A stretch of DNA of 64,000 nt, from positions 2,910,168-2,974,167 of the forward strand of contig LT827128.1 in assembly GCA_900170005.1 (NCBI GenBank). The letters are read 5' to 3'. The notes beneath the pieces are model-generated. The model saw only the letters and a program-made list of their open reading frames with translations, had not been told where the DNA came from and did no database searches. Below are positions 4,657 to 36,100 of this stretch, piece after piece. This DNA comes from Gordonibacter massiliensis (ex Traore et al. 2017). GTDB lineage: Bacteria > Actinomycetota > Coriobacteriia > Coriobacteriales > Eggerthellaceae. Position 1 is the stretch's first letter; each line of letters starts with the position of its first letter. Position numbers and translations under genes: made by a program.

Positions 4657-5022
4657 CACGGTGTTCGCCAACTCCTTCGCATGCCTCTTCGTCCGATCTC
4701 TCTTCGAGCATTATATAGTTCGCACAAGGCCGCGCCCCTAAGATTCATAGCAGCAGCAAACGCGAATTTCGCGCTCTCGTGACCGCCTGTCGGGAGTTCG
4801 GGCACGGCAAAGAGGTGGGGAGGTGCGGGTGCGCACTGGCCCCGCTACTGCGGCGTGCGGGTGCGTCGTGGCAAAAAACTTCGGCCGGGGGAGGGGCTGG
4901 CAATTCTTCGGCGGGTTTCCGTGGTTCTCCGGCGTTCGTGGAAGCGTTTGCCCAGGCAAGATTTTCCGATGCGCACGACCGATTGCCACAGACCCACTTT
5001 TTTACCGGCTGCTCCCTTCCCG
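4657..5022. other. Divergent intergenic region, no gene seen
   Basis: This part of the 700-bp gap between the flippase (minus) and the Por operon (plus) has no convincing ORF. It probably carries the flippase promoter, but I cannot point to clear -35 and -10 boxes. Confidence 0.4.
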
Positions 5023-5185
5023 TGCACAAAAATCACCGATGTCCCCCTCCGGCGGCCGCCCCGTCCTCCCTCGCGCCCGCGTTCGATTCGCGTGACTTGG
5101 GCAAACGCCCCGCAAGAGCGCGCGGTGCCGAGCGAGCGGGCCCTTCCAATCCGGATTCTAGGGGGACATCGGTGATTTTTGTACA
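5023..5185. mobile_element. MITE-like element with 22-bp perfect terminal inverted repeats
   Basis: The segment 5027-5048 (CAAAAATCACCGATGTCCCC plus CT) is the exact reverse complement of 5160-5181. With one mismatch the match extends 4 nt further out on each side. About 110 bp without coding capacity lie between. Long TIRs round a short non-coding core are the structure of a miniature inverted-repeat element; no transposase is present. Confidence 0.5.
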
Positions 5186-5313
5186 GCGGCGACCCTGCCG
5201 GAGGACTGCTGAGACCGGAAATCGGGCAGCGGGTTCGCGCCGCGCTTTGCCCAATTGGGGGAGATTGGCGGCACGTGGGCGGAGCGAGCGCGTCCTCCTC
5301 CCAGCGGCAGCGG

Positions 5314-5319
5314 TATACT
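5314..5319 (+). promoter_or_regulatory. Possible -10 box for the Por operon
   Basis: TATACT lies 38 bp before the start at 5358. No good -35 box is seen at 16 to 18 bp, so this is a weak call. Confidence 0.3.
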
Positions 5320-5357
5320 TGCCTGACCAACGTGCGAAGATGCGAAAAGGATAGCTC

Positions 5358-6452: not shown

Positions 6453-7825
6453 AGCGGTTCCTTTCCGGCGACGAGGCGTTCGCCGAGGGCGTGCGGCTGG
6501 CGCGCCCGCAGGTTGTCAGCGCGTACCCCATCACGCCGCAGACGGTGGTGGTGGAGCGCTTGAGCGAGATGGTGGAGGACGGTTCGCTGGCCGCCGAATA
6601 CGTGCATGTGGAGTCCGAGCATTCGGCGCTGTCGTGCGCCATCGGCGCGTCGGCCACGGGAGCGCGCACGTTCACGGCCACGTCGAGCCAGGGTTTGCTG
6701 TACATGGCCGAGTGCCTGACCTACGCGTCGGGCGGCCGGTTCCCCATCGTCATGATGAACGCGAACCGCGCCACGGCGCTGCCGTGGAACATCTACGGCG
6801 ACCAGCGCGACTCGCTCTCGCTGCTCGATCACGGCTGGATCCAGGTGTACGCCGAGAACAACCAGGAGGCGCTCGACTTGGCGCTCATGGCCTACGCGGT
6901 GGCCGAAGACCCGGCGGTGCGCACGCCTGTCATGGTGAACCTGGACGGCTTCGCGCTTACGCACACCTACGAGACGGTGGACGTGCCCGCGCCCGAAGAG
7001 GCCGACGCCTTCCTGCCGCCCTACGACGGGGCGGGCAATCGCTTCGACTTCGAGCATCCGGTGAACATCGGCTTCTCGGCGGGGCCGGAGTACGACCGCT
7101 ACTTCAAGTACTGGGAGCATCGCGACATGCAGGAGGCGGCGCCGCGCGCCATCAAGCAGGCGGAAGAGCGTTTCGCCGAGGTGTTCGGGCGGCGCTACAC
7201 CGGCATGATCGAGTGCGTGGACTGCGACGATGCCGACGTGGTGCTGGTGACGCTCGGGTCGGTGGCGGGGCTCGTGCGCGGCGTGGTGTCCAAGCTGCGC
7301 GCCCAGGGCATGCGGGTGGGCCTGCTGCGCATCCGCTACCTGCGTCCGCTGCCGAGCGTGCTCATCGCCTGCGCGCTTCAGGGCGCGAAGGCCGTGGGCG
7401 TGCTGGAGAAGGACGTCTCGTTCGGCGCGGAGGGCACGGTGTACACCAACGTCAACTCGGCGTTGCACCAGGTGGACGTGCATGTTCCCACGTACAACTT
7501 CATCGGGGGCTTGGGCGGCGACGACATCTCCGAGGCCCAGGTGGAAGGCATGTTCCGGGTGCTCGTGCAAGCGGCCGAGGGCGAAGCCGACCTGCCGCAT
7601 GTGACGTTCTTGGGCATCGATTCGCCGGCGGAGGGTGTTCCGTCGGCCTGTCGGCCGCCGGAACGGGCCGACGCTGCGGCTTCCCGCAGCACCCGATCTC
7701 GCGGCGATGCCGGGGACTCGCGTACCGAAGTACGCTTCGCCCCCGCCATCCCCACGATCTCGGGCACTGCGGAAACCCTCGCTGACTTATGTGGACCTGC
7801 GAGCAACGAGGAAGGGGGGCGGTAG
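6449..7825 (+). CDS. porA: 2-oxoacid:ferredoxin oxidoreductase, alpha subunit
   Basis: The 458-residue protein starts in a 4-bp overlap with the previous gene. The first 260 residues carry the PorA pyrimidine-binding fold (VSAYPITPQTVVVERLSEM, the signature YPITPQ; then ESEHSALSCAIGASATGART). The second domain has VTLGSVAG and LRIRYLRPLPS of the C-terminal swivel domain, followed by the Rossmann-like part with VLEKDVSFG. With PorB it forms the TPP-dependent decarboxylating core that makes acyl-CoA and reduced ferredoxin. The last 60 or so residues, from about 397, are Ala/Arg-rich and are encoded by a nested-hairpin repeat element (7637-7790), so the natural C-terminus was probably near 396. 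Confidence 0.88.
   Translation: MKRFLSGDEAFAEGVRLARPQVVSAYPITPQTVVVERLSEMVEDGSLAAEYVHVESEHSALSCAIGASATGARTFTATSSQGLLYMAECLTYASGGRFPIVMMNANRATALPWNIYGDQRDSLSLLDHGWIQVYAENNQEALDLALMAYAVAEDPAVRTPVMVNLDGFALTHTYETVDVPAPEEADAFLPPYDGAGNRFDFEHPVNIGFSAGPEYDRYFKYWEHRDMQEAAPRAIKQAEERFAEVFGRRYTGMIECVDCDDADVVLVTLGSVAGLVRGVVSKLRAQGMRVGLLRIRYLRPLPSVLIACALQGAKAVGVLEKDVSFGAEGTVYTNVNSALHQVDVHVPTYNFIGGLGGDDISEAQVEGMFRVLVQAAEGEADLPHVTFLGIDSPAEGVPSACRPPERADAAASRSTRSRGDAGDSRTEVRFAPAIPTISGTAETLADLCGPASNEEGGR
7637..7790. repeat. Nested-hairpin repeat element, copy B, inside porA
   Basis: The element shares with copy A (2307-2461) the opening hairpin (GTTCCGTCGGCC and GGCCGCCGGAAC), GCCGACGCTGCG, the central hairpin GCGTAC-CGAA-GTACGC (7720-7735) and the closing CTCGCTGACTTA. 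The outer stem differs in sequence but is again roughly self-complementary. It is open in the porA frame, and the porA stop lies 33 bp beyond. Confidence 0.7.
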
Positions 7826-7827
7826 CC

Positions 7828-8748
7828 ATGGCCGTGAACGCCAAGAACATCAGCGACGACGAGTTCTTCTTCGGCCACAAGGCGTGCGCCGGGTGCGGCG
7901 GGTCGCTCGCCCTGCGCGCGGCGCTCAAGGTGCTGGGGCCGAATGCCGTGGCCGCGCTGCCGGCCGGCTGCATGAGCGCCGTCGGGTTCAACTTCCCCCA
8001 GCTTGCCTTTGCGAACAACGCCATGATCACGCCCTTCGCCGCCACGGCCAGCGTGCTCACCGGCATCGAGGCCGGCTTACGCGCGCAGGGGAAGAAACCC
8101 GACGACTGCACGGTGGTGGGCTTCGCCGGCGACGGCGGCACCGCCGACATCGGTCTGCAGGCGCTCTCCGGCGCCATAGACCGCAACGACGACGTGCTCT
8201 ACATCTGCTACGACAACGAGGCGTACATGAACACGGGCATCCAGAAGAGCTCGCTCACCCCGTTCGGCGCCAAGACCACCACCACGCCGGCGGGCTCGAA
8301 CACGCGCGGTTGCCTGACGCAGAAGAAGAACCTGTTCGAGATCGTGGCCGCCCACGGTATCCCCTACGCCGCCACGGCGTCTATCGGCTACCTGAACGAC
8401 TTCATCCGCAAGGTTGAGCGCGCCCGCGACATCCGCGGCACGCGCTACATCCACGTGATCGCCCCGTGCCCCACCGGCTGGGGTTGCGGCGTGGACGAGA
8501 CGGTGGATATCGCGAAGGACATCGTGGACACGGGCCTGTGGTACCTGGCCGAGTACGAGGGCGAGCAGGTGAGCGGCGTGCCCGGCGGCCGCTTCAAGCT
8601 CAACCGCGACCCCAAGGAGTTCGCGAGCGTGGACGCGTACCTGCGCCGCCAAGGCCGCTTCAAGGCCCTCACCGACGAGGACGCGGCCGCCGTCGAGGCG
8701 GGCCGCGACGCGAAATGGGAGGCCATGCGTCGGGATTGGCGCGGCTAG
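7828..8748 (+). CDS. porB: 2-oxoacid:ferredoxin oxidoreductase, beta (TPP-binding) subunit
   Basis: The 306-residue subunit starts at ATG 7828, 2 nt after the porA stop and behind a GAGGAAGGGGGG site; the open frame reaches further up but without a ribosome site. CAGCGG (C18, C21) near the N-terminus gives two of the Cys ligands of the 4Fe-4S cluster; further cysteines include C204 region CPTGWGCG. GDGGTADIGLQALSGAIDRN and the NEAYMNTGIQKS segment that follows are the TPP/Mg motif (GDG...N). It binds thiamine diphosphate and pairs with PorA. The KTTTTPAG segment is typical of ketoacid oxidoreductases of pyruvate and other 2-oxoacids. Its order G/D-A-B matches other anaerobes. Confidence 0.92.
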   Translation: MAVNAKNISDDEFFFGHKACAGCGGSLALRAALKVLGPNAVAALPAGCMSAVGFNFPQLAFANNAMITPFAATASVLTGIEAGLRAQGKKPDDCTVVGFAGDGGTADIGLQALSGAIDRNDDVLYICYDNEAYMNTGIQKSSLTPFGAKTTTTPAGSNTRGCLTQKKNLFEIVAAHGIPYAATASIGYLNDFIRKVERARDIRGTRYIHVIAPCPTGWGCGVDETVDIAKDIVDTGLWYLAEYEGEQVSGVPGGRFKLNRDPKEFASVDAYLRRQGRFKALTDEDAAAVEAGRDAKWEAMRRDWRG

Positions 8749-11254: not shown

Positions 11255-12268
11255 GTGCGGTTGACGACGAACACCGAGAAGACGCGATTATTCGACGTTC
11301 CGGGCGAGGACTGCGGATGGCATACGGCGCTGTACTACTTCGCCGAGCATATTCGATCGCTGTCGCATGGTCGGATCAATCACAAGGTCCTCTATTCCTA
11401 CATCGGAACGAACGGCCACTATATCAACCACGACAATCCCACCATCCGCAAGCGCACGGCGGCCGTTTTGTCCCGTCTCATTCATTCGCGCCGCTACGTG
11501 GAGGATTTCCGCACGAGCTACGAGAAGAATCCGCGGGCTTTCGACGAGGCCGCGCAGCTTCTCTGCGCCGAGCTGTGCGAGGGAGCGGGTTGCGATGCCG
11601 GAGAGGCGGTCGACTATTTTCGCGGCGCCCTGTGGGAGGACGTCGAGCGCGGGCTGCAGAACGAACGCGAGGACGGGCGCGCGGAGCTCAACCCCGACCG
11701 CATAGCCAACGAGATGCATTCCTTGTTCGCCTGGTGCGACGAGCTTCCCGCCACGCACGGCAAGGAGCAGCTGGTCGTGCTTGCGTCCTCGTACTTCCAT
11801 CTTATGACGTTCGGATATCTCGACGAACGGCTCGTGCTCGAGCTGGCCGACGAGACGCCGCTCGTCGTTCCGAACGCGGACGAGGGCCGACCCTGTCTGC
11901 AGGAGAACCGTGCCTGCCTGATCAAATACGCGAGCGACGAGAAAGGCGCCATGGCCAACTGGTGGACCCTGACGACCGACCGCCCGTTCGCCATCGGGCG
12001 CTACACCGATTGCGACGTCATCGAAGTGAATCCGTACGTATCTCGGTCGCACTGCCGCATCGTCGGCAAGGACGGCGTTTGGCTCTTGGAAGACCAAGGG
12101 TCGCGGCACGGCAGCCGCGTTCTGCGCGACGCGTGCGTCGTGTACGACAGCGCGCGCGACGGCCGCCAGCCGTTCGAGCTTGCGTTCGGCGACCGCATCG
12201 TCCTGGCCGGCGTCGCGCACTACTGGTTCGGCGCCCTGCTCGAGGGAAATCGGACCGCACGCCGCTGA
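11255..12268 (+). CDS. FHA-domain protein downstream of the kinase
   Basis: I choose GTG 11255, 6 nt after GGGGA, giving 337 residues; TTG 11225 is in frame but lacks a site. Residues 1-230 are helical and match no family I know. The C-terminal 100 residues are a forkhead-associated domain, which binds phospho-Thr peptides: FAIGRYTDCDV (the GR motif), then VSRSHCRI (the SRxH motif) and GSRHGSRV in place of the usual NGT turn. It lies 85 bp behind the Ser/Thr kinase on the same strand. The long N-terminal half could be a substrate or scaffold region controlled by phosphorylation. No membrane segment is seen. Confidence 0.8.
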   Translation: MRLTTNTEKTRLFDVPGEDCGWHTALYYFAEHIRSLSHGRINHKVLYSYIGTNGHYINHDNPTIRKRTAAVLSRLIHSRRYVEDFRTSYEKNPRAFDEAAQLLCAELCEGAGCDAGEAVDYFRGALWEDVERGLQNEREDGRAELNPDRIANEMHSLFAWCDELPATHGKEQLVVLASSYFHLMTFGYLDERLVLELADETPLVVPNADEGRPCLQENRACLIKYASDEKGAMANWWTLTTDRPFAIGRYTDCDVIEVNPYVSRSHCRIVGKDGVWLLEDQGSRHGSRVLRDACVVYDSARDGRQPFELAFGDRIVLAGVAHYWFGALLEGNRTARR

Positions 12269-12330
12269 TTGATTCCGAAAATGGGGAAAACCGGTCGCAA
12301 AAACCGGCCGCAAAACGCAGGGAGGATAAC

Positions 12331-12530
12331 GCAAGAAAAAGAGAACCAGGTGATCGATCTGCTGGTTTTCGGAAGGGGCTGCCGGTAGGAGCAGGATCGT
12401 GCAGGCTCTCGAACTGGGGCCAACGAGGACCAAGGATATCCTGTCCAGCATGGTTTCCAAAGGCCTTGTCGTACCCGAGGGGACGGGCCGGGCGCGCGTG
12501 TACCGATTGCCCGACGAAGCGCGCGAATAA
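12331..12530 (+). pseudogene. Decayed winged-helix (HTH) domain fragment
   Basis: Two out-of-frame pieces read like one C-terminal winged-helix domain: ENQVIDLLVFGRGCR (stopped by TAG), then in another frame [20 protein letters not shown] and [20 protein letters not shown], ending at TAA 12528. Helix-turn-helix plus wing is the pattern seen at the end of ATP-binding or RecG-like HTH proteins. There is no intact start. I infer a gene remnant with a frameshift; a short real ORF beginning at GTG in the second frame is less likely. Confidence 0.45.
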
Positions 12531-12598
12531 TCCCTGCAAGTGCGGCAACACTGCTACAATGTGCAATTACGATTGCCCATACGTTTCGAGGAAGCAAC

Positions 12599-15178
12599 AT
12601 GACCATGAAACCTTACAACCCGCACGAGATCGAGCCTCGCTGGCAGAAGGAGTGGGCCGACACCGACCTCTACCAGGTGACGGAGGACACCTCGAAGCCG
12701 ACGAAGTACGTACTGGAGATGTTCCCGTACCCGTCGGGCGACATCCACATGGGGCACGTGCGCAACTACACCATCGGCGACGTGGTCGCGCGCTATTCCA
12801 AGATGCGCGGCTTCGACGTGCTGCATCCCATGGGCTGGGACGCGTTCGGCCTGCCGGCCGAGAACGCGGCCATCAAGCACAACAGCCATCCCGCCGCCTG
12901 GACCTACGCCAACATCGACACGCAGAAGGCGTCGTTCAAGCGCATGGGCTTCTCGTACGACTGGGACCGCACCGTGGTGGCGTGCGACCCGGAGTACTAC
13001 CGCTGGGGCCAGTGGATATTCCTGCAGTTCTGGAAGCGCGGCTTGGTGGAGCGCCGCAACAGCCCCGTGAACTGGTGTCCGAACTGCGGAACCGTGCTCG
13101 CCAACGAGCAGGTCACGGAAGGCACGTGCTGGCGCTGCCACGGCGCGGTGGAGAAGCGCGACCTGACGCAGTGGTACCTCAAGATCACCGACTACGCCCA
13201 GGAGCTGCTGGACGACCTGGACCAACTGGACGGCTGGCCCGAGCGCGTCAAGCAGATGCAGGCGAACTGGATCGGCCGTTCCGAGGGCGCCGAGGTCACG
13301 TTCACGCTGTGCGGCCCCGACGGCGAAGCGCCCGCCGAGCCCACTGAGGACGACCTCATCACCGTGTTCACCACGCGCCCGGACACGCTGTTCGGCTGCT
13401 CGTTCTTCCTGCTGGCGCCCGAGTACCAGGGCCTCATGGAGCTGGTGGAGGGCACCGAGTACGAGGCCGGCGTGCGCGAGGTGGTGGAGGGTGCCGCCAA
13501 GGTGAGCGCCGTGGAGCGCGCGCAGGGCGACCGCGAGAAGCATGGTGCGTTCACCGGCCGATACATGGTGAACCCCATCAACGGCGAGAAAGTGCCCGTG
13601 TGGGTGGCCGACTACATCGTGAGCGACTACGGCACCGGCGCGGTCATGGCCGTGCCGTGCGGCGACCAGCGCGACTTCGAGTTCGCGCGCAAGTACGACC
13701 TGCCCATCATCCCCATCATCCTGGGCGAGGACGACCCGCTGTACCCCGAGCTCAACGGCGTGCAGGAGCGCCGCGTGACCTCGGTGGATTGGGACCACGC
13801 CTACGACGCCGAGGGCATCCTCGTGCAGTCCGGGAAGTACACCGGCATGACGGGCGGCAAGCACTCGCCGGCCGTGGACGCCATCGTCGCCGACCTCGAG
13901 GCCCAGGGCCGCGGCCGCACGAAAGTGGAGTTCCGCCTGCGCGACTGGCTCATCAGCCGCCAGCGCTACTGGGGCAACCCCATTCCGGCCATCCACTGCG
14001 AGAAGTGCGGCCTCGTGCCCGTGCCGGAAGAGGACCTGCCGGTGCGCCTGCCCGAGGACATCGACCTGGCCGCCGGCGAGACGCTAGCCACGCACGAGGC
14101 GTTCGTGAATACCACGTGCCCCGTGTGCGGCGGCCCGGCCAAGCGCGAGACGGACACCATGGACACGTTCACGTGCTCCAGCTGGTACTATCTGCGCTAC
14201 ACCGATCCGCATAACGACGAGCTGCCGTTCGCGCCCGAGAAGGCGAACCGCTGGCTGCCGGTGGACCAGTACATCGGCGGTATCGAGCACGCCATCCTGC
14301 ACCTGCTGTACAGCCGCTTCTACACGAAGGTGCTGCGCGACCTGGGGCTGGTGGACTTCGACGAGCCGTTCGCGAACCTGCTCACGCAGGGCATGGTGCT
14401 GGACGAGCACGGCGAGGTCATGAGCAAGTCCAAGGGCAACGTCATCTCGCCCGAGGACATGATTGCCGGCTACGGCGCCGACGCCGTGCGCACCTACATC
14501 CTGTTCATGGCGCCGCCCGACAAAGAGCTGCAGTGGAACGAGGACGGTCTGGCCGGCATCTACAAGTTCATGAACCGCGCATGGCGCATCGTGAACGACT
14601 TCCTCTGCCAGGCGGGCGACGAGACGTTCTACCAGGAGGGTTCGTCGCGCGAAGAGGGCGAGAAGGCGGCTGAGACGCTCAACCGCGAACGGCATCGCGT
14701 GGTGGGCAAGGTTGCCGACGACTTCGACCGCAACAACTTCAACACCGCCATCGCCGCCATCATGGAGCTGGTGAACGCGGCCAGCGACTACCTGCGCAAG
14801 GTGTCGCCCGAGACGCGTGCCGCCGACGAGCGCTTGCGCACCCTCGATGCCGACGTGGCCGAGGTCATCGTGAAGATGATGGCGCCCCTGGCTCCGCACT
14901 GGGCCGAGGAACTGTGGCACACCGTGCTGAATCGCGAGGGCTCCGTTTACGAACAGCCATGGCCGGAGTTCGACCCCGAGCAGGCCAAGGCCGACGAGGT
15001 GGAGCTGGCCGTGCAGGTGAACGGCAAGGTGAAGGCCAAGATCACCGTGGCCGCCGATGCCCCCGAGGACGACATGAAGGCCGCCGCCCTGGCCGCGGCC
15101 GAGCAAGTGCTCGCGGGCAAAGACGTCAAGAAGGTCGTCGTGGTACCGGGCCGCCTGGTGAACATCGTGGCGAAGTAG
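12599..15178 (+). CDS. leuS: Leucyl-tRNA synthetase
   Basis: This 859-residue class I synthetase charges tRNA-Leu with leucine in the cytoplasm. The HIGH signature reads HMGH at residues 50-53 within [20 protein letters not shown]. The zinc-binding knuckle [13 protein letters not shown] is near 160, the CP1 editing domain occupies about 220-420, with the TTRPDTLFG motif, and the KMSKS loop reads VMSKSKGN near 609. The anticodon-binding and C-terminal domain ([11 protein letters not shown]) is complete. ATG 12599 follows GAGGAAG; the next ATG is two codons on. TACAAT at 12555-12560 may be its -10 box. Single-gene transcription unit followed by a hairpin at 15208. Confidence 0.97.
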
Positions 15179-17305: not shown

Positions 17306-17974
17306 CTAAGCGGCGTCGGAGTTTGCCGAATCCGCAAGGTTCTCCCGGTCGAGGGCGACCCACGCGGCGACGAGCGCGCAGAGGCGCGCGAAGAGGTCGT
17401 CGTCCGCCTCGGCCATGGCCTCTGCCGCTTGGCCGACCCAACGGGCGAGATGGAGGTCGACGAACCGTTTCCTCCACGCACGGCACCGCCTTGCCTCGTC
17501 CTCGCTTCGAGCTTCCGATTCGGCCCGCGCGAGCAGCGCCGCGAACGCCAGCTCGCTCGCCAGGCTGTCGGCCCGCAGGGTTTTCACGGCCAAGGGATAG
17601 CCGGTCAGCGAGGAGAACTCGAAAGACCAGCTGCGATAGCATTGCTCCACGTGGTCGATGGCGGGCCCGGCGGTGGGCCCGTACCGCCGGGACCCGTTCA
17701 CCACGGCCGAGTCGAGCAGGCAGCTCTCGCTTAAAGGCACGAAGTAGGGGCTCGCGGGGACGAAGAAGCGATCGAAGTACCGCTGCTCCAAGTCGGCGCT
17801 CGCCTCGAAGCATCTGAGCCCTTCTGCGCCGAGCAGGTCGGCCGCGCGGGCGACGTCGGACAGAATCCGCTCGTCGGGAACGTTGAGCAGCGCCTCGGCC
17901 AGCGTTTCGTACACCAAGCCGGTCGCTCGCGCTTCCAGCGCGCGTTCCGAGCCCGTTTCGATGGTCGCTTGCAT
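17306..17974 (-). CDS. TorD/DmsD-like molybdoenzyme chaperone
   Basis: The 222-residue all-helical protein starts at ATG 17974 after AGGAAAGGAGC. It has the TorD-family pattern: an N-terminal helix pair ending with LLGAEG, then FDRFFVPASPYFVPLSESC and VEQCYRSWSFEF, an equivalent of the conserved Y-x4-VPxxES and hydrophobic core motifs. TorD proteins bind the twin-arginine leader of a cognate molybdoenzyme and help cofactor insertion before TAT export. It is the last gene of the minus-strand operon that begins at 22712, and its client is most likely that selenocysteine-type enzyme. A 127-bp spacer with a strong hairpin separates it from the NrfD gene. Confidence 0.75.
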   Translation of the reverse strand: MQATIETGSERALEARATGLVYETLAEALLNVPDERILSDVARAADLLGAEGLRCFEASADLEQRYFDRFFVPASPYFVPLSESCLLDSAVVNGSRRYGPTAGPAIDHVEQCYRSWSFEFSSLTGYPLAVKTLRADSLASELAFAALLARAESEARSEDEARRCRAWRKRFVDLHLARWVGQAAEAMAEADDDLFARLCALVAAWVALDRENLADSANSDAA

Positions 17975-18101: not shown

Positions 18102-18974
18102 CTAGAACAGCACCAACGGCACGGCGGCCATGATAACCAGGTAGCGCAGCAGGAAGCCGCCCACGAGCACGCACGCCTCGCCGACGATCGCCATGCCGGA
18201 CGACGCAGCTTCCGGGTTCTTCTTCGCCTGCGCGGCGCGCACCAGCTCGAGGCAGAACGGCAGCGCCAACCCCACGACCACCAGCCCCAGCCAGAACGCC
18301 ACGGCGTAGGGCCCGCTCAGGTTGGCCACCGAAGCGGCGGCGGCCGGTCCGGCGCTGCCGCCCACGGAGGCCGTCACGGCCAGCAGCGCGACCACGAGCA
18401 CGACCTCCAGCACGGGAAGCGCCAGGCCGGTCTTCTTCAGAAAACCCAGCCCGTCCGATCCCCCGAACTTGCCGACGTGCGCCGCCAGGAGCACGGCGGC
18501 GAAGCCGGACGAAGCGGCCGACACCAGGAACAGCAGCGGCAGCACGACGGGGTTCCATAGCGGGAATCCGGGTGCGTCGCCCAGCAGAAGGCCGGTGTAT
18601 ATGGCCACGGCCACGGCGCAAACCAAGCCGACGACGTCGAGCGCCTTGGGCGTGCTCTTCTTCCTCAGCATGACCACGAGCGCCACCACGCTCACGATCA
18701 TGAACAAGATGAGGATGACCACGCCCCACGCCATGACCGACGAGAAGTTCGCCAGCAAGCCGAAGAAACGCAGCGGGTTCATGAGCCCCGCCTTGGCGTC
18801 CACCATGAGCAGCACCGTGCCCACGGCCACCGCGATCGGTGCGATGACGTAGCCCGCAAGGCGCAGCTTCGTCGCGTCGGGCTTGACGAAGCCCGCGAGC
18901 GCGGCCAGCGCGAACGCGCCGGCGCCCAACCCTGCCAAGAACAGATAACAGGCGATAATTCCATCCCATACCAT
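18102..18974 (-). CDS. NrfD/PsrC-type membrane anchor of molybdoenzyme complex 1
   Basis: About 290 residues with eight or so hydrophobic segments, starting MVWDGIIACYLFLAGLGAGAF, a segment typical of small NrfD anchors. These proteins take electrons from quinol, or deliver them to quinone, and connect with the four-cluster FeS subunit on the outer face of the membrane. ATG 18974 has GGAGGGG at 9 nt; GTG 18983 is too close to that site. The ribosome site overlaps the end of the ferredoxin gene, so the two are probably coupled. A paralogue of similar length is at 29886. Confidence 0.85.
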   Translation of the reverse strand: MVWDGIIACYLFLAGLGAGAFALAALAGFVKPDATKLRLAGYVIAPIAVAVGTVLLMVDAKAGLMNPLRFFGLLANFSSVMAWGVVILILFMIVSVVALVVMLRKKSTPKALDVVGLVCAVAVAIYTGLLLGDAPGFPLWNPVVLPLLFLVSAASSGFAAVLLAAHVGKFGGSDGLGFLKKTGLALPVLEVVLVVALLAVTASVGGSAGPAAAASVANLSGPYAVAFWLGLVVVGLALPFCLELVRAAQAKKNPEAASSGMAIVGEACVLVGGFLLRYLVIMAAVPLVLF

Positions 18975-18979
18975 GCTGA

Positions 18980-19600
18980 TCACCCCTCCAGCGGCTTGAC
19001 GACGTTGCCGCCACGATGGATGGCGGATGTAACCGGCATGCCCTCCACCTGGGAAAGCCCCACGTAGAGCACCGCCGGGTCAAGTCCGAGGTCGGCGTAA
19101 AGCGCCTCGCTCCCAACCTCGGCCACCTTCTTCGCGATATCGCTTTTAGGGTCGTTCAGGTCGCCGAAGTAGCGCGCGCGGGTCACGCACGTGGACACGC
19201 AGGCGGGCAGCAGGCCGTGGGACGAGCGGTGGTAGCAGAACGTGCACTTGCCCACTTCGCCCGTGTCGTCGTTCACCCAACGGGCCTGGAACGGGCAGGC
19301 GGCCATGCAGTACTTGCAGCCGATGCACTTCTCCTCGTCCACCAGCACCACGCCTTCCTCGGTGCGGTAGCTGGCGCCCGTGGGGCACACCTTCACGCAG
19401 GGAGCGTCGGCGCAGTGGTTGCACAGCTTCGGCTGGTTGGCGCGGCGGGTTTGCTCGCCGGTGTTCACATCCCAGCTCTCCACCCAGGTGTTGAACTTCG
19501 TGAGCGGCACGCCGTTCTCCTGCTTGCAGGCCACGGCGCAGGCGTTGCATCCTATGCAGAGGGACAAGTCGATCAGCATGCCGAGTCGTTTCTCAGTCAT
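18980..19600 (-). CDS. Four-cluster ferredoxin subunit (DmsB/PhsB/NrfC-like) of complex 1
   Basis: The 206-residue protein starts at ATG 19600 behind GGGAGGG; the long upstream extension of the frame is the shadow of the catalytic gene. Cys groups are CIGCNACAVACKQEN, CNHCADAPCVKVCPTGAS, CIGCKYCMAACPF and CTFCYHR...CVSTC, the standard four 4Fe-4S binding sets of DMSO-reductase electron-transfer subunits. It relays electrons between the NrfD anchor and the molybdenum subunit. It lies 13 bp after the catalytic gene and its stop overlaps the ribosome site of the NrfD gene. Confidence 0.92.
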   Translation of the reverse strand: MTEKRLGMLIDLSLCIGCNACAVACKQENGVPLTKFNTWVESWDVNTGEQTRRANQPKLCNHCADAPCVKVCPTGASYRTEEGVVLVDEEKCIGCKYCMAACPFQARWVNDDTGEVGKCTFCYHRSSHGLLPACVSTCVTRARYFGDLNDPKSDIAKKVAEVGSEALYADLGLDPAVLYVGLSQVEGMPVTSAIHRGGNVVKPLEG

Positions 19601-19613
19601 CTTGCATCCCTCC

Positions 19614-22600
19614 CTATGCCTTCTCGATGTTGTACATGCCGCCGCTGCGCCCGGGCGAGCCGGCGTCGCTGTCGGCGTGGGGGTAGATGACCCCGTCCTC
19701 GAGCATCGGGTCGAGCATGGTTTGCAGGTGGACGCCCGCGGCGATGGCGGGATCCCCCTTCGCCAGCGTTCCGTCGATCTCGGCGTCCTGCGCGCCGTAC
19801 GCATGGTGCCCGTAGCCGTAGGCCACGCCGAACGTGCTGCGCGCGATGCCGGCTCGCACCATGGCCTCTCCGGTCATGACGTCGCCCGTGGGGTTCGTGA
19901 TGCGTACGGTATCGCCGTCTTTGATGCCAAGCTCGGCCGCGTCGTCCAGGTTGAGCTCCAGGTAGTTCTTCTCGCACAAATCGCGCATGATGGGGCTGTT
20001 CGCCTGCATGGAGATGGAACGGAAGCGCGGCTTGTAGTTCGTGGAGCGGAACGGCCATTCCTGCTCGCTGTACACCTCGGCGATGGGGGTGCGGTCGCAG
20101 AAGTCCTCGGGCACGTACCGCAGCGCGGCGTCGGGGTGGACGCCCGAATAAGGGTTTTTGTTCAAGGCCTTCTTCTCGCTGTAGTACTGGATCAGGTACT
20201 CCTTGGCATAGGCGCTGCGGCCGTTTTTCTGGCTCGTTTCGATGGGCCAGAAGCGTCCGCCGCGCGAAAGCACGTTGAGGACCTTCGGCCATTCCTCGGG
20301 CGTGACGGCCTCCTTCCAGGCGGCGGGAAGCTCGTCGAGCGCCTGCAGTTTCACATCCTCGTCGCGCACGTCGGCCACGGGCTCCTCGGCGAAGGCCAGG
20401 TTCGCCACGGCCTTCAGGAAGAAGTCGGCCGCATCGTTGAGCGGGTAGGACGTGCCGTCCGTCGCCTCTATGGCGTTGTCTCCGAACCCGGGCATATCGC
20501 ACGCCTTCGCCACGTCGACGCAGAACGCCTCGAAGCTGGCGAAGCGCCCGTCGGACAGCTCGATGGTGCTGGGCTGCTTGGCTTGCCAGCGCACGGTGTT
20601 GCCCTTGCCGCGCCAGTAGCCCTCCTGCGTCACCAGGCCGAAGCTCTCGAACGGCGTGGTGTCGGGCACGATGTAGTCGGCGAGCTGCGCGTGCTCGCCG
20701 ATGAAGGCGTCGCAGGCGATGTGCAGCGGCACGACGGAGGTGTCCTTGAGCTTTTCGATCACGCTGTCGCGCAACGCGCCCGAAGACGCCTGGATGGTGT
20801 TCGTCATCCAGGACACGAGGATCTTCGCCTGGTAAGGGTACTCGTTCACGATGGACACGAGCGCCTGGTTGTCGGAAGTGGAAGGAACGTTGAGCCAGGG
20901 GAGCTTGGGCTTCGGGTCCTTCTCGCCCGCCGCGACGCGGGCCTTGTACTCGTCGGTTTGCGAGAACAGCTTCTGGGTGCGGCAGATGTACGTGGCGTTC
21001 TTGGCGGACACGGCCGGCTTGCCCTTGACGGTGGCCAGCTTGTAGCGATCGCCGTCGGTCGTGGTCTTCGAGCCGATACGGTAGCAGTTGCAGCCGCCGG
21101 TCATCTGCGCGGAGCCGATAAGGCCGTTGAGGGCCGGATAGGCCAGCACGCCGGTGGTGCCGTTGGCCGTTGCGGAACCGCCGAAGCCGAGGCGCGCGGA
21201 CGCCTTGGTGCCGTGCGAGACGAACTCTTTGGCGATGCGCTCCATGGTGGCGACAGAGGTGCCGGTGATCTCGGCGTACTCGTCCAGGGTGTGCTCGAAC
21301 GCGTTGTCTTTCAGGAACAGGAAGCTGCTGCGCACCTTCACGCCGTTCACTTCGCCTTCGTACTCGAACTGCGCGGCGTCGCTCTGCGTGTGGATGGCGG
21401 GCTGCCCGGTGGCCTGGTCGATGACGACGTAGTACGGCACCGGTGTGGTGGCCTTCGGATCGGCAGGAGGCTCTTCGAGCCCTGCGTCGGCCGCCCGCAT
21501 GAGCTTGCGGTAGTTCGGGTGGTTCTCGTCGACGATGACGAGGTGGCTCGCGTTCGTGTAGGAGGCGAAGCCGCCCGCGAACGCGCTTTGGTAGTTCGGA
21601 TAGGAAAGGAACGTGGCGTTGTACGTTTTGTCTTCGAGTATCTTCCGTACGATGCCCAGCGCAAACGCGGCGTTCGTCGCCGTTTTGATGGGCACCCAGG
21701 TGATGCCCTTGGCGGTGGGGGTGACGCATCCGTTGCCCAGCACGGGGTCCACCACATCGATGGTGCACTCGCCGGTTTGCAGGCGGTCGAGGGTGCGTTT
21801 GGCGATTCCCTGGAAGCTCTTGCCGTTCGATCCGGGGAACGCGCCCATGAACAGGACGTACTCGCCTTCCTCAAGGTCGGGTTGGGTATTGTTCGAAGCG
21901 GTCTCTGCCAGCGCACGCGCTGTTTGGGAGCCGCCTCAAGTGGAGCCGTGGCCGTATTGGTTCAGGGAGCCGAAGCAGTTGGTGAACCTGGTTCCGATGG
22001 TCGTGCGTCCGTCGCCGCGTCCGCCCAGCATGACGAACTGGTTCGACACGGGGCCCAGGTCGGGCTGCGCGGGGTTCAGGGGCGTCTCGGTATCGTGCAG
22101 CGCCTTGAAGCCCTCGACCTCGCGGTCCTCGCCCGCGTCGGCGAACAGCTTGCCGCCTTCGGTCACTTCCTTGATGAGCTCGTCCCAGCCGATGGCCTTC
22201 CACTTGCCCTCGCCGCGCTTGCCCGCGCGCTTGAGGGGCGCGGTGATGCGGTTGGGCTGCGCGTACACGTCCTGCGTGGCTTGGCCGCGTCCGCACACGG
22301 TTCCACGGGTGAGGTTGCCCTTGCCGGATGCGAATCCCATGGACTGATACGCCTCGCTGAGCGGCTCGTCGAAGTCCAGATAAGGGTACGCGCAGCTGGG
22401 ATGGTAGGGGTTGCCTCCCACCGATATGAGCCGTCCCGATGCGCGATCCAGCTTGAGCCGGTTGCCGCACGAGCTGTAGCAGCCCAAGCACGCGCTGTAG
22501 CGCACGACCACGTCGTCGTTGATGTCGAGCTTGCCCGTCTCCGGGTCGACGGTGGCCTCGATGGGTTGGCCGTGTTTCTGCTCGGGAAACGCGGCATCTT

Positions 22601-22712
22601 CGGCATGCGCCTTGTGTGGTTGGCCGGCGATCCCCACGCCGGCAATCGAAAGGGCTCCCAGGCCGCCTGCGGCCTTTAGGAAGCTCCTGCGATCCAGGTT
22701 GATGCTTGCCAT
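19614..22712 (-). CDS. TAT-exported molybdopterin oxidoreductase with in-frame TGA at the Mo ligand (selenocysteine)
   Basis: Read through one TGA (21936-21938, codon 259), the frame gives 1032 residues, the usual size of large PhsA/TtrA/SrrA-like catalytic subunits. The leader DRRSFLKAAGG (Arg8-Arg9) is a twin-arginine signal. The N-terminal 4Fe-4S set is C75, C78, C82 and C140 (CLGCYSSC, TVCGRGQ). The TGA lies in FGSLNQYGHGST-U-GGSQ. The paralogue at 33123-36389 reads FGSVNNFNHGGVCGMTG at the same point, its Cys306 being the expected Mo ligand. Both halves carry conserved sequence: MGAFPGSNGKSFQG just after, and the C-terminal cofactor-binding domain. Start ATG 22712 follows GGAGGGAG. FeS, NrfD and TorD genes follow in one operon. 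The substrate is unknown; a nonsense mutation is the alternative. Confidence 0.82.
21909..21922 (-). promoter_or_regulatory. Candidate bacterial SECIS hairpin after the UGA codon
   Basis: In the mRNA, CAGCG-CGUG-CGCUG forms a 5-bp perfect stem (6-bp if the loop closes further) beginning 14 nt after the UGA, with GU in the loop. Bacterial SECIS elements sit in this interval and present a G-U containing apical loop to SelB. The stem is compact, so this is suggestive only. Confidence 0.45.
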
Positions 22713-22986: not shown

Positions 22987-24495
22987 ATGGTTCAGTATCT
23001 TGCAGAACATATGAGGGTGTATCGGAGGCAGGCGATAGGGTTCGCCTTCTTCTTGGCTTGGAACTACTACTCGTTCTTCTCGTGCGGGCTCGTTCCTATT
23101 ATCCATGTGGTTAGAAGCAGTGAGCGCGTGTGGGTGTGGGCGGGGTTGTTCATCGCCATCGGCTCCATCGTGGCCATGCTTGCTTCTGCCAGGACGTCGC
23201 TCGCCGGCAAGAAGGCCTGCGGATTCGCGGCGGCATTTCTTGCCGCCGGTGGCACCGCGGTTATTTGGACGAGCTTTTTCAGCGTGGCGACCTACCAGGC
23301 GGTGTCGGCCGTGGGCGGCATGATAGCGGGCATGGGCTTTGCGTTGATGGCGTTGGTGTGGGGCGATCGAATGAGCAGGTACAACGAGGCGGCCATCGAG
23401 TTTTCGGCTCCGGCCTCCTTCATCCTGTCGTTTTTCATCTATTTCGCGCTGCTCGCGCTCAAAGGGCCCGCGTCAATGGCGGCGGACGCCCTGCTCCCCG
23501 TTCTTTCGATGTACTTTGCGTTCCGCACTGCCGAAGTGGCTCACGGCGGGGACGAGGGGATTGCCGACGTGGACCGGCGGGTGCATGGGCGCGAACTCGT
23601 CCATGCGCTGGCGGGTATCGTGACGCTGTGCCTGCTGTTTGCCATGCTGTGGTTCCAGTTCGCCTATTTCAGGCTGCTCTCCACGCCCGATGTGGTGGGC
23701 GATCGGTTTATGCATTACCTCGTGCCGTTCTCGTGCTCGTCCGTGCTCTCCATAATCGCCCTGCTGTCGTGCATAAAATTGTCGCGCCATTTGAACTTCA
23801 CGCTCATGTTCCGATGGGGCCTGCCCTTTCTGCTGCTGAGCTATGCGCTGCTGTACTACAACTACGACGACGAGGTGCAGAGGATCGTGGCGTACACGGT
23901 GAACTTCATCGGCATGTTCGGTGTGCAGTTCAGCTTCTGGATTGCGGCACCGAAATACGTGCGACGCTCTCGCATCCCGGCGTACGTCCTGTTCGGAGCC
24001 ATGTTCGCCGCCGAAGGCGTTGGCATCTTCTTGGGAACGGGTTACGGTCTCATCGTCATCGACGGCGTGACTGCAACGAACGTGATGAACGAATCGCTGC
24101 TGTTCTTCGTGGCGGTGCTGCTGGTGGCCATGGTGGTGGGCTTCAACCCGCGGTGGTCGTTTTTCCGCATGAGCCCGCGTTGGAAGGTTCGCGAGGACGA
24201 GGCCGACGGCGAGGCTGCGGGCGGCACGTCGACCGCCGACGACATCAACGCCCTGTTCGCGCAGCAAGCCGAGGAGCTGCGCGCGGCCTACGGCCTGTCG
24301 AACCGCGAGACGGAGGTGGCGGAGCTGCTTTTGGCGGGACGCAGCCGACCTTACATCCGCGACGAACTGGTTATATCGCTGAACACCGTGCACGCGCACG
24401 CGCGCAACATCTACGCCAAGTGCGGCGTGCATTCGCAGCAGGAGTTCATGGACTTGTTGCGTCCCGTGGCGAAGCGGGACGAGCCCGAGGCGTGA
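22987..24495 (+). CDS. LuxR-family regulator with 12-TM membrane sensor half
   Basis: ATG 22987 follows GGGGGA, giving 502 residues. Residues 15-400 hold about 12 hydrophobic segments with MFS-like spacing (from RRQAIGFAFFLAWNYYSFFS onward). The last 65 residues are a LuxR helix-turn-helix: YGLSNRETEVAELLLAGRSR, then YIRDELVISLNTVHAHARNI and YAKCGVHSQQEFMDL. This membrane-LuxR architecture is common in Eggerthella relatives, and members are often encoded beside molybdoenzyme genes. It is divergent from the selenocysteine-type reductase operon, so it likely senses that enzyme's substrate at the membrane and activates the operon. A dyad lies between the two starts. Confidence 0.88.
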   Translation: MVQYLAEHMRVYRRQAIGFAFFLAWNYYSFFSCGLVPIIHVVRSSERVWVWAGLFIAIGSIVAMLASARTSLAGKKACGFAAAFLAAGGTAVIWTSFFSVATYQAVSAVGGMIAGMGFALMALVWGDRMSRYNEAAIEFSAPASFILSFFIYFALLALKGPASMAADALLPVLSMYFAFRTAEVAHGGDEGIADVDRRVHGRELVHALAGIVTLCLLFAMLWFQFAYFRLLSTPDVVGDRFMHYLVPFSCSSVLSIIALLSCIKLSRHLNFTLMFRWGLPFLLLSYALLYYNYDDEVQRIVAYTVNFIGMFGVQFSFWIAAPKYVRRSRIPAYVLFGAMFAAEGVGIFLGTGYGLIVIDGVTATNVMNESLLFFVAVLLVAMVVGFNPRWSFFRMSPRWKVREDEADGEAAGGTSTADDINALFAQQAEELRAAYGLSNRETEVAELLLAGRSRPYIRDELVISLNTVHAHARNIYAKCGVHSQQEFMDLLRPVAKRDEPEA

Positions 24496-31812: not shown

Positions 31813-33126
31813 ATGGCACGCACGCAAGCGAAAAGGCGCCCGTTCGGCGTCGAGCCGTTCTCCCGCCGGGCAACCGTCGTCTGGGCGGTTGTCGTGGTCG
31901 CCCTCTTGGCGGCCGGCGGCTTCTTCATGTTCGACCGGTTGGCGAACGGCCTGTCGATGGCCGGTGCGACCAATGCCGTGCCCTGGGGTTTGTGGGTTGC
32001 GGTCTACATCTGGTTCTCGGGCCTGGCGGGCGGGTTGTACCTCGTGTCGGCGCTCGTCTACCTGCTGCGCCTCCCGCGCTTCGCGCCCATCGCGCGGCTC
32101 GCGTTGGGCGGCAGCATCGTGTCGCTTGTCGTGTCGATGATCTTCATCGGCATCGACCTGGGCGCCATCAGGCATTCGCTGGGAACGCTGCTGTTCTTCC
32201 ATTGGTCCTCGCCCTTGGCGTGGGAGATCAAGGCCTATATCTTCTTCATGGTCGTCGCCATCGCGCAGTTCGCGCTCGTGCTGTACAACGACCGCGGGGC
32301 TCGCGCGGCGGTCGCCGGCGCAGCCGACGGGCGGAAGGCCGACACGCATCGCGGCAACGTGAACCTGGTCGTTCGCGTGCTGGCGGGCGTGGGCGTGGCC
32401 ACGTCGTTCGTGGGGCCTCCGGGCGGCACGGGCATGTTCTTCGCCGCCGTGAAGACGCGGGGGCTGTGGGAGGGCGGCATCACCTCGGTGCTGTTCTACG
32501 TCATGGCCGTGGTGACGGCGGCGGCGTTCCTCATCGTGGCCTATCGGCTGCTGTGCCGCCTGCGCGGCGCCCGCCCCGACGAGGCGGCGTGCACCGGCCT
32601 CGCGCGCGTGCTCGCGGCCTCGCTGTTCGCGCTCGCCCTCTGCGTGTTCTTCCAGCTGGCGCCCGCGCTGCTCTCCGACGATCCCCGAATCGCCGACGCG
32701 GTGGCGGTCATGACGGGCGGGTACCTGGCGCCGCTGTTCTGGATCGGCGAGATCGGCCTCGGCCTCGTCGTTCCGGCCGTGCTGCTGGCCCTGGGCGCCG
32801 CGCGGCGCTCGCCGGGCATGGTGACAGCCGCGTCCCTGTCGGTCATGGCGGGCATCCTCGCGTTGCGCTACGTGCTGGTGGTGGCCGGCTTTTCCGTTCC
32901 GCTGCTGGCGGGCATGGCGCCGCCGGTGTACGTGCCGAGCTTGGGCGAGGTTATGGTGGCGCTGTTCGTGCTTGGATTGGGCGTGGCCCTGTACGGGCTG
33001 GCCGTGCGCTTTCTGCCGCTGGAGGCCATGGGCCCCGGCGAAGGCGTGATGGAGAAGACGGCGATAGCCGGCAACGCGGCGGTCTTCGCCGGACCGGTTG
33101 GCAACGAGAAGGAGGCCGCACGATGA
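31813..33126 (+). CDS. Large NrfD/PsrC-type membrane anchor of complex 3
   Basis: The protein has 437 residues and about ten hydrophobic segments. NAVPWGLWVAVYIWFSGLAG and the following FIGIDLGAIRHSLGTL segment are signatures of the longer NrfD/HybB-like group, unlike the short anchors at 18102 and 29886. It should be the quinone-reactive subunit. It starts at ATG 31813, 5 bp after the FeS gene, and its stop overlaps the start of the catalytic gene (ATGA at 33123), so the three are translationally coupled. Confidence 0.9.
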   Translation: MARTQAKRRPFGVEPFSRRATVVWAVVVVALLAAGGFFMFDRLANGLSMAGATNAVPWGLWVAVYIWFSGLAGGLYLVSALVYLLRLPRFAPIARLALGGSIVSLVVSMIFIGIDLGAIRHSLGTLLFFHWSSPLAWEIKAYIFFMVVAIAQFALVLYNDRGARAAVAGAADGRKADTHRGNVNLVVRVLAGVGVATSFVGPPGGTGMFFAAVKTRGLWEGGITSVLFYVMAVVTAAAFLIVAYRLLCRLRGARPDEAACTGLARVLAASLFALALCVFFQLAPALLSDDPRIADAVAVMTGGYLAPLFWIGEIGLGLVVPAVLLALGAARRSPGMVTAASLSVMAGILALRYVLVVAGFSVPLLAGMAPPVYVPSLGEVMVALFVLGLGVALYGLAVRFLPLEAMGPGEGVMEKTAIAGNAAVFAGPVGNEKEAAR

Positions 33127-36100
33127 GCGAGCATACCGAAACCACGTCCGCAAGCCGCGAGGCCGCCGCGTCTCCGCACGGCGCCGACGCGTCCGCGCGC
33201 ACGGCGTTCGGCACGCCGTCGCGCAGGGCGGTCGTGGGCGCGAGCGCCGCGGTGGCCCTGAGCGCGCTGGCGGGCGGCGCGGGCTTGGGCGCCTACATGG
33301 CTGCGAACGACCCGCTGACCGACGCCCCGCACGGCCGGGGGCAGGCGTCCGGCGCTTACGGCGCCGACGACGTGGTGCTGTCCATGTGCAACAACTGCAA
33401 CACCTACTGCACCATCAAGGTGCGCGTGACCGACGCCGCCGAGGGCACCGACGCGGCGGAGGGAGCCACGGCGCTCGTGCGCAAGATCTCCGGCAACCCC
33501 TACTCGCCGCTCAACTCGCAGCCCTACGCGCCCGTGCCCTACGGCACCGCGCCCGCCGACGCGCTCGCGCCCGACGGCTCCATGGCCGTGAAGGGCCGCG
33601 CGGCCAACGGCGGCATGATCTGCCTCAAGGGCCAGGCGGGCATCCAGCTCGTTCACGACGCGCTGCGCGTCACCCAGCCGCTGCGCCGCGTGGGCGAGCG
33701 CGGCTCCGACGAGTGGGAGACGGTGTCGTGGGACGAGGCCGTCGACGAGATCGTGAACGGCTCGCCGTCGCTCGGCACGCCGGGCGTGGCCGCGTGGTGG
33801 GCCTACGCGCCGAAGAAGGACGTGGAAGCCGACGTCGCCCTGGTGGAGGCCGGCGAGATGACGAAGGAGGCGTTCGCGCAGAAGTGGGGCGACAAGCTCA
33901 TCGACGTGGAGCATCCCGACCTGGGGCCGAAGTCCAACCTGTTCTGCAGCTGCGGCGGCGACCGCATGTTCCTCATCGGCGACCGCTTCACGCAGAAGTG
34001 CTTCGGCTCGGTGAACAACTTCAACCACGGCGGCGTGTGCGGCATGACCGGCGTGATGGGCAACGCGCGCACGCACCCCACCACGGGGCACAAGCGCATG
34101 TACGCCGATATCGACCACTGCGAATGCCTCATCATCTGGGGCACCGAGCCCATGACCGCGAACAAGGGGCCGACCTGGCTTGCGCCGCGCCTGTCGGTGG
34201 CGCGCGAGCGGGGCATGAAGCTTATCGTGGTGGACCCCCGCCAAGGCCGCAGCGCCTCGAAGGCCGACGTGTGGCTGCCGGTCGTTCCCGGCCACGATGC
34301 GGACCTCGCGTTCGCCATGGCCTCGTGGATCGTGCAGAACAAGCGCTACGACGAGGCCTACCTGCGCGCGCCCGGCAAGAAGGCTGCGGCCGCCTTGGGC
34401 GAGCCCACCTGGTCCGACGCCACGCACCTGGTGGCCGTCGACCTGCCGAACAGGCCCGTGGTCACGGCGAAGCTGCTCGGGCGCACGGGCGAGGGCGGGC
34501 TTGCCGACGACGCGCGGTTCGTGTTCGCGGGCGGCGAGCTCGTGGCGGCCGACGAGCTCGACGGTCCCGCCGACCTCGAGGTGGACGACGTGGTGGACGT
34601 GAAGGGCAAGCCCACGCGGGTGGTGAGCGTGTTCGCGCTTCTCAAGGAGCGCTTGGACGAGCGTACGATCGAGGAGTACGCCGCCGCGGCCGGCATCGAC
34701 GTGGCCGACGTGGTGGACGTGGCGCGCGAGTTCACCTCGCACGGCAAGCGCGCCTGCGTCATGAGCTACCGCGGTCCCGCCATGCACGCGAACGGCTTCG
34801 ACGCCGTGCGCGCCGTCTCGTACCTCAACTTCCTCATAGGCAACCACGACTGGAAGGGCGGGCATATCGCCGCAGCCGCGAAGTTCGCCCCCTACACGGG
34901 GCGCTACGACCTGCAGTCCGTGCCGAACGCGCACGAGGGCTGGGGCATTCCCATCACGCGTCAGAAGACGGAATACGAGAAGACAAGCTACTTCAAGCAG
35001 GACGGCTACCCGGCGCCGCGTCCGTGGTACCCGTTGCCGGGCAACCTCTCGCACGAGATCGTGCCCACGCTGCGCGCCGGCTACGTGTACGACCACCTGG
35101 GCGCGCTGTTCATCCACCGCCATTCGCTCGTCGACTCCACGCCCGGCGGCGACCGTTTGGCCGACGTGCTGTGCGACACGGACAAGATCAACCTCTTGGT
35201 GTCGTTCGACGTGGAGGTGGGCGACACGTCCCGCTACGCCGACTTCGTGCTGCCCGACCGCACCTATCTGGAGCGGTTCAGCCAGGAGCCCATCTACCCG
35301 AACCAGCAGTACCAGCTCATCCAGTTCGGCCAGCCCGCCGTGCGCGCCTACGAGGGCCCGCGATCGGTGGAGGACGTCTACCTGGAGATCATGGAGCGGC
35401 TCGGCCTGCCGGGCGTGGGCGAGGGCGCCGTGCCGAAGGGCAAGAAGGACAGCGGCCAGACGGCTTCGCTTTCGAGCGAGGAGGACTACTGGCTGAAGAT
35501 GGCCGCGAACATCGCCTACGCCGGCGAGCCGGTGCCCGACGCCGATGCCGAGGAGCTGGCCCTGTTCGAGCGCGTGCGCGCTCGCGCCTTGGGCGACGCG
35601 TTCGACCTCGACGCGTGGAAGGCGGCCGTGGACGAGGACGAGTGGCCGAAGGTGGTTTACGTGCTCAACCGCGGCGGCCGGTTCGGGTCGGCCGACCCCG
35701 CGAAGGACGACGGCTACGAGGGCGACCTCATCAAAACGCGCTACGCCGGCTTGTGCGCGTTCTACGACCCGAAGACGGCGTCCACGAAAAACGCCCTTAC
35801 CGGGAAGAACTTCGACGGCATGGCCGCGGCGGCCCCGGTGGCCTACGCCGACGGCTCGGCTTTCGAGGCTCCGGCAGAGCGCCCGCTCGCCTTCGTCAAC
35901 TGGAAGGCGCGCACCAACGGCACGCACCGCACCATCGCCTCGCCCTGGCTGCGCGAGACGGGCACCGAGAACTTCGTGTGGATGTGCCCGGCCGACGCTG
36001 CGGCGCGCGGCCTGGCCAACGGCGACGCCGTGGAGGTGGCGGGCCCGATGGGCTCTGAATCGGGCCATGTGCGCGTGACCGAGGGCATCCGCCCCGGCGT

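Follow-up and report, generated by a model that had tools for sequence, protein, structure and literature searches.

The window analysed here, 64,000 nucleotides of contig LT827128.1 of Gordonibacter massiliensis (ex Traore et al. 2017), carries on its minus strand a gene for the predicted catalytic subunit of a TtrA-like reductase of the dimethyl sulfoxide (DMSO)-reductase family. Its frame runs from 22712 to 19614 over 1032 codons, ends in TAG and contains one in-frame TGA, at codon 259 (21938–21936), that is probably read as selenocysteine (Sec). The genome is a single contig of 3.95 Mb and is 99.8% complete. A first-pass annotation, made from the sequence alone, had given the coordinates of the frame and its single TGA correctly and had left the minus strand unstated; the frame found on the plus strand of 19614–22712 is unrelated to the reductase. 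Under the standard code the gene falls into two open reading frames (ORFs) of 258 and 744 amino acids, the latter beginning at an ATG at codon 289. The features that concern the decoding of this TGA are as follows.

19614–22712, minus strand: predicted TtrA-like DMSO-reductase-family molybdoenzyme, catalytic subunit, 1032 amino acids, putative Sec at 259, TAG stop (frame; NCBIfam and Pfam matches; [4Fe-4S] cysteine motif)
21936–21938, minus strand: in-frame UGA, codon 259, probably read as Sec, at the molybdenum (Mo)-ligand column (column of 54 homologues; ArrA alignment)
21909–21922, minus strand: predicted apical hairpin of a bacterial selenocysteine insertion sequence (SECIS), nt 17–30 from the U of the UGA, loop CGUG, G23–U24 at 21916–21915
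33123–36389, plus strand: distant paralogue with Cys306 at the codon-259 column, for comparison only (alignment)

Codon 259 among homologues

Homologues were found in 4 of 5 genomes of the genus, in 26 of 138 genomes of the family (E ≤ 1e-60) and in 13 of 396 genomes drawn from the phylum. Frames of at least 700 codons were considered, matches spanning less than about 740 query residues were excluded, and copies of the same gene present in several loci were merged. The resulting alignment holds 54 different genes, 37 of them close (at least 46% identity, 22 family genomes) and 17 distant (28–33%); because at most five candidates were scored per genome in the family search, the family member counts are lower bounds. 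A search of contigs for related loci yielded four loci and the whole-genome searches yielded more; the nearest named relative is in Gordonibacter sp. 28C (95% identity), and the other three named loci belong to G. pamelaeae 7-10-1-b, Gordonibacter sp. An230 and an Eggerthellaceae metagenome-assembled genome. Two TGA copies are present in the G. pamelaeae 7-10-1-b record (L025).

The codon-259 column consists of TGA in 21 genes, TGC in 31 and TGT in two (33 Cys codons in total), with neither TAA nor TAG, and the aligned stretches of the 54 homologues contain no second TGA in frame. The TGA genes are spread over 16 genomes, including two in the genome of the window, in which the second copy (G000:C1:1156780–1159896, equivalent to L072:6781–9897, minus strand) is 59% identical, has one in-frame TGA and shows a matching operon layout. 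Since 21 different genes have TGA at this column and nowhere else, the codon is not there by chance. The first-pass annotation had proposed that TGA should alternate solely with Cys or Sec codons, which is the pattern seen throughout the column, and its pairing of the TGA with Cys306 of the 33123–36389 paralogue is borne out by an alignment that places the Cys of NHGGVCG on the same column. It had also named other stop codons or frameshifts in close homologues as contrary evidence; the 37 closest family members cross the site in a single frame with no stop except TGA. Separately, a 32% identical paralogue at G067:C1:2447327–2450140 contains one in-frame TAG, perhaps through decay or sequence error.

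Purifying selection acts on both sides of the TGA, in agreement with the earlier remark that the flanking sequence is conserved in frame: when the window gene is compared with each of two orthologues, the ratio of nonsynonymous to synonymous substitution rates (dN/dS) comes to 0.09 and 0.09 ahead of the codon and to 0.08 and 0.11 behind it, and a third TGA pair (L072 versus L060) has 0.11 ahead and 0.22 behind. Copies with TGA were found within Eggerthellaceae and not elsewhere in the phylum draw (396 genomes; nine matching genomes outside the family, all without a stop) or in a class draw (396 genomes; all 23 matching genomes inside the family), which is not proof of absence because both draws are samples within one phylum with two candidates scored per genome.

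SECIS element and selenocysteine machinery

All 21 TGA genes have the dinucleotide G23–U24, which three of the 33 Cys genes share (Fisher p = 4e-12). At least four of the five stem pairs of the hairpin form in 20 of 21 versus 6 of 33, and hairpin and dinucleotide coincide in 20 of 21 TGA genes, compared with 12 of the 21,423 remaining codons in these genes. Among the 16 distinct SECIS sequences represented by the 21 genes, standard pairs fill 95% of the cells of the stem and both sides vary at four of the five pairs. The real stem was matched on any of five measures by none of 500 shuffles, and all six versions in which the stem was slid along the sequence scored lower (26–55% paired). U24 falls on the third position of a codon, a place at which these genes have T in 5.9% of cases, and the Ser codon at this site is AGT in 14 of 14 cases versus 34 of 1284 elsewhere in the same genes. 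A covariance model trained on 18 TGA genes, leaving aside the window gene and the two orthologues nearest to it, scored the SECIS site at 45.1 bits, with 14.0 bits for the next best position in the window. In the entire genome only the two TGA genes exceeded 20 bits (47.7 and 45.1, followed by 18.4), the 47.7-bit gene being the second copy, C1:1156780–1159896, itself a member of the training set.

According to a 2026 inventory of selenoproteins, bacterial SECIS elements have a loop of 3–9 nt, a stem of 4–16 bp, a G at one of the two leading positions of the loop, a distance of 16–37 nt from the UGA and a minimum free energy of −7.5 or below (PMC13188914). The window hairpin, with its CGUG loop, 5-bp stem, 18 nt from UGA to loop and −23.0 kcal/mol over the 54 nt from the UGA, agrees with these constraints. 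The two formate dehydrogenases of the same genome (UHxP motifs UHSP and UHAP) also have G23–U24 at equal spacing from the UGA, as does Escherichia coli fdhF, the sequence of which was matched to fdhF by search. These two Sec formate dehydrogenases lie in L108 near 5989 (minus strand), beside selD, and in L109 near 3766 (plus strand).

All four sel genes proposed earlier as a check are present in the genome. SelA (447.7 bits), SelB (domains PF09107, PF25461 and PF09106) and tRNA-Sec (selC; 70.6 bits, gathering cut-off 47) are clustered at about C1:1.1996–1.2034 Mb, and SelD (352.8 bits, with its own TGA inside) lies at 1.192 Mb. Across the family, tRNA-Sec scores over the cut-off in 80 of 138 genomes, six of which have weak matches only (48–51 bits). 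Every one of the 16 genomes that carry a TGA copy has it, none through a weak match, as do three of the six genomes whose members among the 37 close genes are all Cys (G031, G066 and G067); the Cys-only genomes without a detected tRNA-Sec are G043 (84% complete), G098 (97%) and G132 (77%). The association of the TGA copy with tRNA-Sec has a Fisher p of 0.013 when genomes are treated as independent. In genome G062, one of two tRNA-Sec genes (G062:C1:727224–727316) is located about 2.4 kb downstream of a TGA-bearing TtrA-like gene (721746–724841), and two tRNA-Sec matches are also found in several other family genomes.

The first-pass annotation had proposed that the UGA is decoded as Sec. Its recoding by SelB and the SECIS is strongly supported by the TGA/Cys alternation, the covarying hairpin and the sel genes; SelB and tRNA-Sec would decode UGA259 as Sec, guided by the hairpin at nt 17–30.

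Molybdenum site, partner genes and Sec/Cys history

The best NCBIfam model for the reductase is TtrA (NF011567; 610.3 bits, below the equivalog cut-off of 1750), followed at a distance by PhsA (125 bits), and Fdh-alpha reaches 61 bits (cut-off 666) and FDH-N 49 bits; of the earlier description "PhsA/TtrA-like", the TtrA half can be kept, although the score is far under the TtrA cut-off. Domains of the family that binds Mo-bis(molybdopterin guanine dinucleotide) (Mo-bisMGD) are recognized (PF00384, 41.5 bits; PF01568, 44.4 bits), and none of 38 rows departs from the [4Fe-4S] motif Cys75/78/82/140 or from Cys or Sec at residue 259; by its sequence, the protein is a TtrA-like DMSO-reductase-family molybdoenzyme. 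A PF00384 search of the own genome missed the second TGA paralogue, and the resulting list is incomplete. In a phmmer alignment, Sec259 falls on the Cys of SHSSVC in ArrA, which we take to be the Mo ligand, and the ArrA Lys five residues further on, which presumably binds arsenate, is replaced by Thr. An AlphaFold model, computed with Cys in place of Sec and 38 sequences (mean predicted local distance difference test 86.2), matches ArrA first among solved structures (6cz7; Z 27.9, 3.5 Å over 719 residues, 21% identity), with formate dehydrogenase and NapA within about Z 1 of it. A position of the putative Sec259 at the Mo site is supported by these comparisons. The N-terminus contains the twin-arginine sequence RRSFLKAAGG, and the Pfam model for twin-arginine translocation (TAT) signals reaches 19.6 bits there, below its cut-off of 22.7; from family knowledge, the reductase is probably exported by this route.

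Three neighbouring genes lie downstream on the reductase strand and a divergent one upstream.

18980–19600, minus strand: TtrB/NrfC-like 4Fe-4S electron-transfer subunit, presumed ATG start (NCBIfam TtrB 204.8 bits, cut-off 416; Pfam Fer4_11 96.2 bits)
18102–18983, minus strand: NrfD-type membrane anchor (quinol side), GTG start (Pfam PF03916 133.5 bits)
17306–17974, minus strand: TorD/NarJ-type maturation chaperone (Pfam PF02613 40.5 bits)
22987–24495, plus strand: LuxR-type regulator, divergently oriented, its N-terminal part hydrophobic, start approximate (Pfam GerE, C-terminal match of 42.1 bits)

The NrfD and TorD partners named in the first-pass annotation therefore recur as Pfam matches in the operon. 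A scan of 36 of the 37 family genes (L050 was left out) detected a downstream 4Fe-4S match in 36 of 36, an NrfD match in 34 (not in L061 or L041) and a divergent LuxR-like match upstream in 30; five of the six without the latter have at most 1.5 kb of upstream sequence, and L062 has 4.2 kb. Behind the first TGA gene of genome G002, the 4Fe-4S match lies in two pieces (L071:9456–11000, approximate), perhaps owing to a frameshift.

The distribution of Sec and Cys was followed on two trees. The first, of 53 rows (the partial L054 was left out), has Cys in all 16 distant rows and in two family groups of five and four rows, and places the 21 Sec genes and seven Cys rows in one 28-row clade (SH-like approximate likelihood-ratio test 99); at least four Sec/Cys changes are required, three of them forced by well-supported branches. 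The second, which omits 14 of the 17 distant rows and masks the Sec and SECIS codons (13 alignment columns beginning at codon 259), again needs four changes, and Sec monophyly is rejected (approximately unbiased test, p = 0.00014). These results suggest, as the simplest reading, a single gain of Sec from a Cys ancestor inside Eggerthellaceae followed by about three reversions, with putative losses in L032 + L037, in L063 + L050 + L069 and in L042, L031 possibly never having had Sec. The Cys gene L032 retains an intact hairpin together with the uncommon AGT codon (L032:3802–3843, minus strand) in a genome that has tRNA-Sec, and to judge by these remnants the hairpin is a fossil SECIS, of a kind earlier described for other families (PMC1794560). 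No tRNA-Sec was detected in the genome of L042 (G043, 84% complete). In L069, Cys and Sec paralogues occur 4.2 kb apart (4754–7858 and 12043–15159), each accompanied by electron-transfer genes and a LuxR-like gene belonging to it.

Weighing of the readings and known systems

Taken jointly, the observations favour, with a probability of about 95%, a reductase of the TtrA-like Mo type, probably TAT-exported, in which UGA259 is decoded as Sec by means of a SECIS and this Sec occupies the Mo-ligand column. Several points weigh against it. The case for Sec259 is built on sequence, and the covariance-model test is not independent because coding similarity makes part of both scores. The TGA gene L027 misfits the fixed-register 5-bp stem (2 of 5 pairs); read by eye, it can instead form six pairs closed by a loop of 5 nt, with G23–U24 retained. 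Rfam at gathering score found no SECIS in the window, only a tRNA. The UGA of the genome's own selD is followed by G-A rather than G-U at nt 23–24, so that G-U is not universal even in this genome, and the Cys-only genomes G031, G066 and G067 have tRNA-Sec, so that the machinery alone does not dictate Sec. The dN/dS after the TGA rises to 0.22 in the L072/L060 pair. The trees come from quick searches, their branches are long and the basal forks of the clade with Sec are weak, and the exact number of reversions is unsure because the placing of L031 is unsure.

Among the alternatives, a tetrathionate reductase with Sec in place of Cys is a special case of the preferred explanation and does not exclude it. 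TtrA is the best NCBIfam model and the partners are TtrB-like and NrfD-type, but the catalytic subunit reaches only 610 of the 1750 bits required of an equivalog; in addition, genome G058 alone has five members with 47–59% identity to the query, and this, together with the LuxR-like gene adjoining 30 of 36 copies, suggests several substrates. Tetrathionate is thus a possible but not favoured substrate, and this special case is unlikely. A variant of formate dehydrogenase, the usual Sec molybdoenzyme, would account for Sec at the Mo site in a genome with two Sec formate dehydrogenases, but the UHxP or CHxP motif is absent, the residues after Sec being GGS in the window gene and GG, AV or GA in the remaining TGA rows (Gly or Ala directly after Sec in all 21), and the TtrA score stands against 61 and 49 bits for the formate dehydrogenase models, which makes such a variant very improbable.

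A pseudogene, an error in the sequence, a reassigned code and a split protein were all rejected on the evidence of the column, of selection and of in-frame conservation. The frame stays open whichever residue the TGA encodes, so that Trp or Cys could be inserted by a general code change or leaky readthrough; this is hardly credible, given that TGA still terminates the genes of the 4Fe-4S subunit, the LuxR-type regulator and the 33123–36389 paralogue, that the 54-row column holds TGA or Cys only and that a SECIS and the full Sec machinery are present. Two separate proteins, the 258-residue N-terminal part and a 744-residue part started at the codon-289 ATG, are similarly implausible: the 29 codons from the TGA to this ATG are conserved in frame, their differences from the two orthologues are all silent (4 of 4 in each) and Glu284 is identical in 37 of 37 close members. 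A nonsense-mutated pseudogene or sequencing error, as which the broken frame would be taken under the standard code, is the least credible of all in view of the identical codon in 21 genes of 16 genomes without any other in-frame TGA, TAA or TAG, the low dN/dS (0.08–0.11) on both sides and the conserved SECIS.

Under the Sec reading, the selenolate would very probably replace the Cys thiolate as the protein ligand of Mo-bisMGD, a Se–Mo bond expected from family knowledge. Menaquinol is the probable electron donor, connected by the NrfD anchor and the 4Fe-4S subunit to the catalytic subunit, which would hand the electrons to an external acceptor, and the neighbouring LuxR-type sensor may detect this acceptor, with induction by the substrate as expected from related systems.

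In the accessible text of three publications, Sec is a Mo or W ligand only in formate and formylmethanofuran dehydrogenases (PMC7331816, PMC10100899, PMC13188914), in which one phylogeny argues that Sec is ancestral (PMC7331816). The 2026 inventory covers 119 selenoprotein families; its accessible part includes FDH and FwdB but no other recognizable DMSO-reductase-family enzyme and no TtrA-like entry, and the "tetrathionate reductase family octaheme c-type cytochrome" (TIGR04315) found there is a different protein (PMC13188914). Partial texts also describe 66 proteins of unknown specificity, mostly from Eggerthella, Gordonibacter and Clostridium (PMC4257093), and the largest bacterial molybdoproteome, in G. 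pamelaeae (PMC7435645); these parts do not mention Sec in such enzymes. No report of Sec in a TtrA-like molybdoenzyme was found in the literature searched, which left most subscription papers outside. Because the TtrA-like branch is listed, in the texts accessible, with Cys only and the sampled outgroups have Cys, the Sec of these enzymes looks like a fresh gain. On balance it appears somewhat more likely than not that a respiratory reductase on the sulfur/arsenic/selenium-oxyanion side of the DMSO-reductase family descends from a Cys enzyme and has reacquired Sec as its Mo ligand, that this Sec marks a selenium-dependent anaerobic respiration in gut Eggerthellaceae with a substrate that is neither tetrathionate nor formate, and that Sec and Cys are exchanged back and forth within the lineage, with fossil SECIS elements left behind.

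The switching between Sec and Cys in close relatives offers a good natural test of the role of selenium at a respiratory Mo site, and the coexistence of both paralogues in one genome, as in L069, permits a direct test of what selenium adds. The activity of these enzymes should depend on selenium supply, and surveys of gut reductases may miss the genes because the standard code cuts them in two.

With regard to known systems, the reductase resembles ArrA (6cz7), which ranks first among solved structures by sequence and by predicted fold and whose presumed ligand Cys is in the column of Sec259, but it scores 69.7 bits with the ArrA model (NF041714; equivalog cut-off 1600) and has Thr in place of the Lys after the ligand. 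Its likeness to TtrABC lies in the best family match for both the catalytic and the 4Fe-4S subunits and in the NrfD-type anchor, whereas both subunits are far under the TtrA and TtrB cut-offs and the ligand of TtrA is Cys according to published work (PMC7331816, PMC10100899) versus a putative Sec here. The catechol dehydroxylases of Eggerthella and Gordonibacter, as described in the texts available, belong to the same genera and are likewise expanded DMSO-reductase-family paralogues adjoining LuxR regulators; selenium goes unmentioned in the main text of both papers, in which "selen" does not occur (PMC11585353, PMC12771579). From the Sec formate dehydrogenases FdhF and FdnG the reductase differs in lacking the UHxP motif with its His and in a profile score that assigns it to another subfamily, but it shares with them the predicted Sec at the Mo site and a G23–U24 equally far from the UGA.

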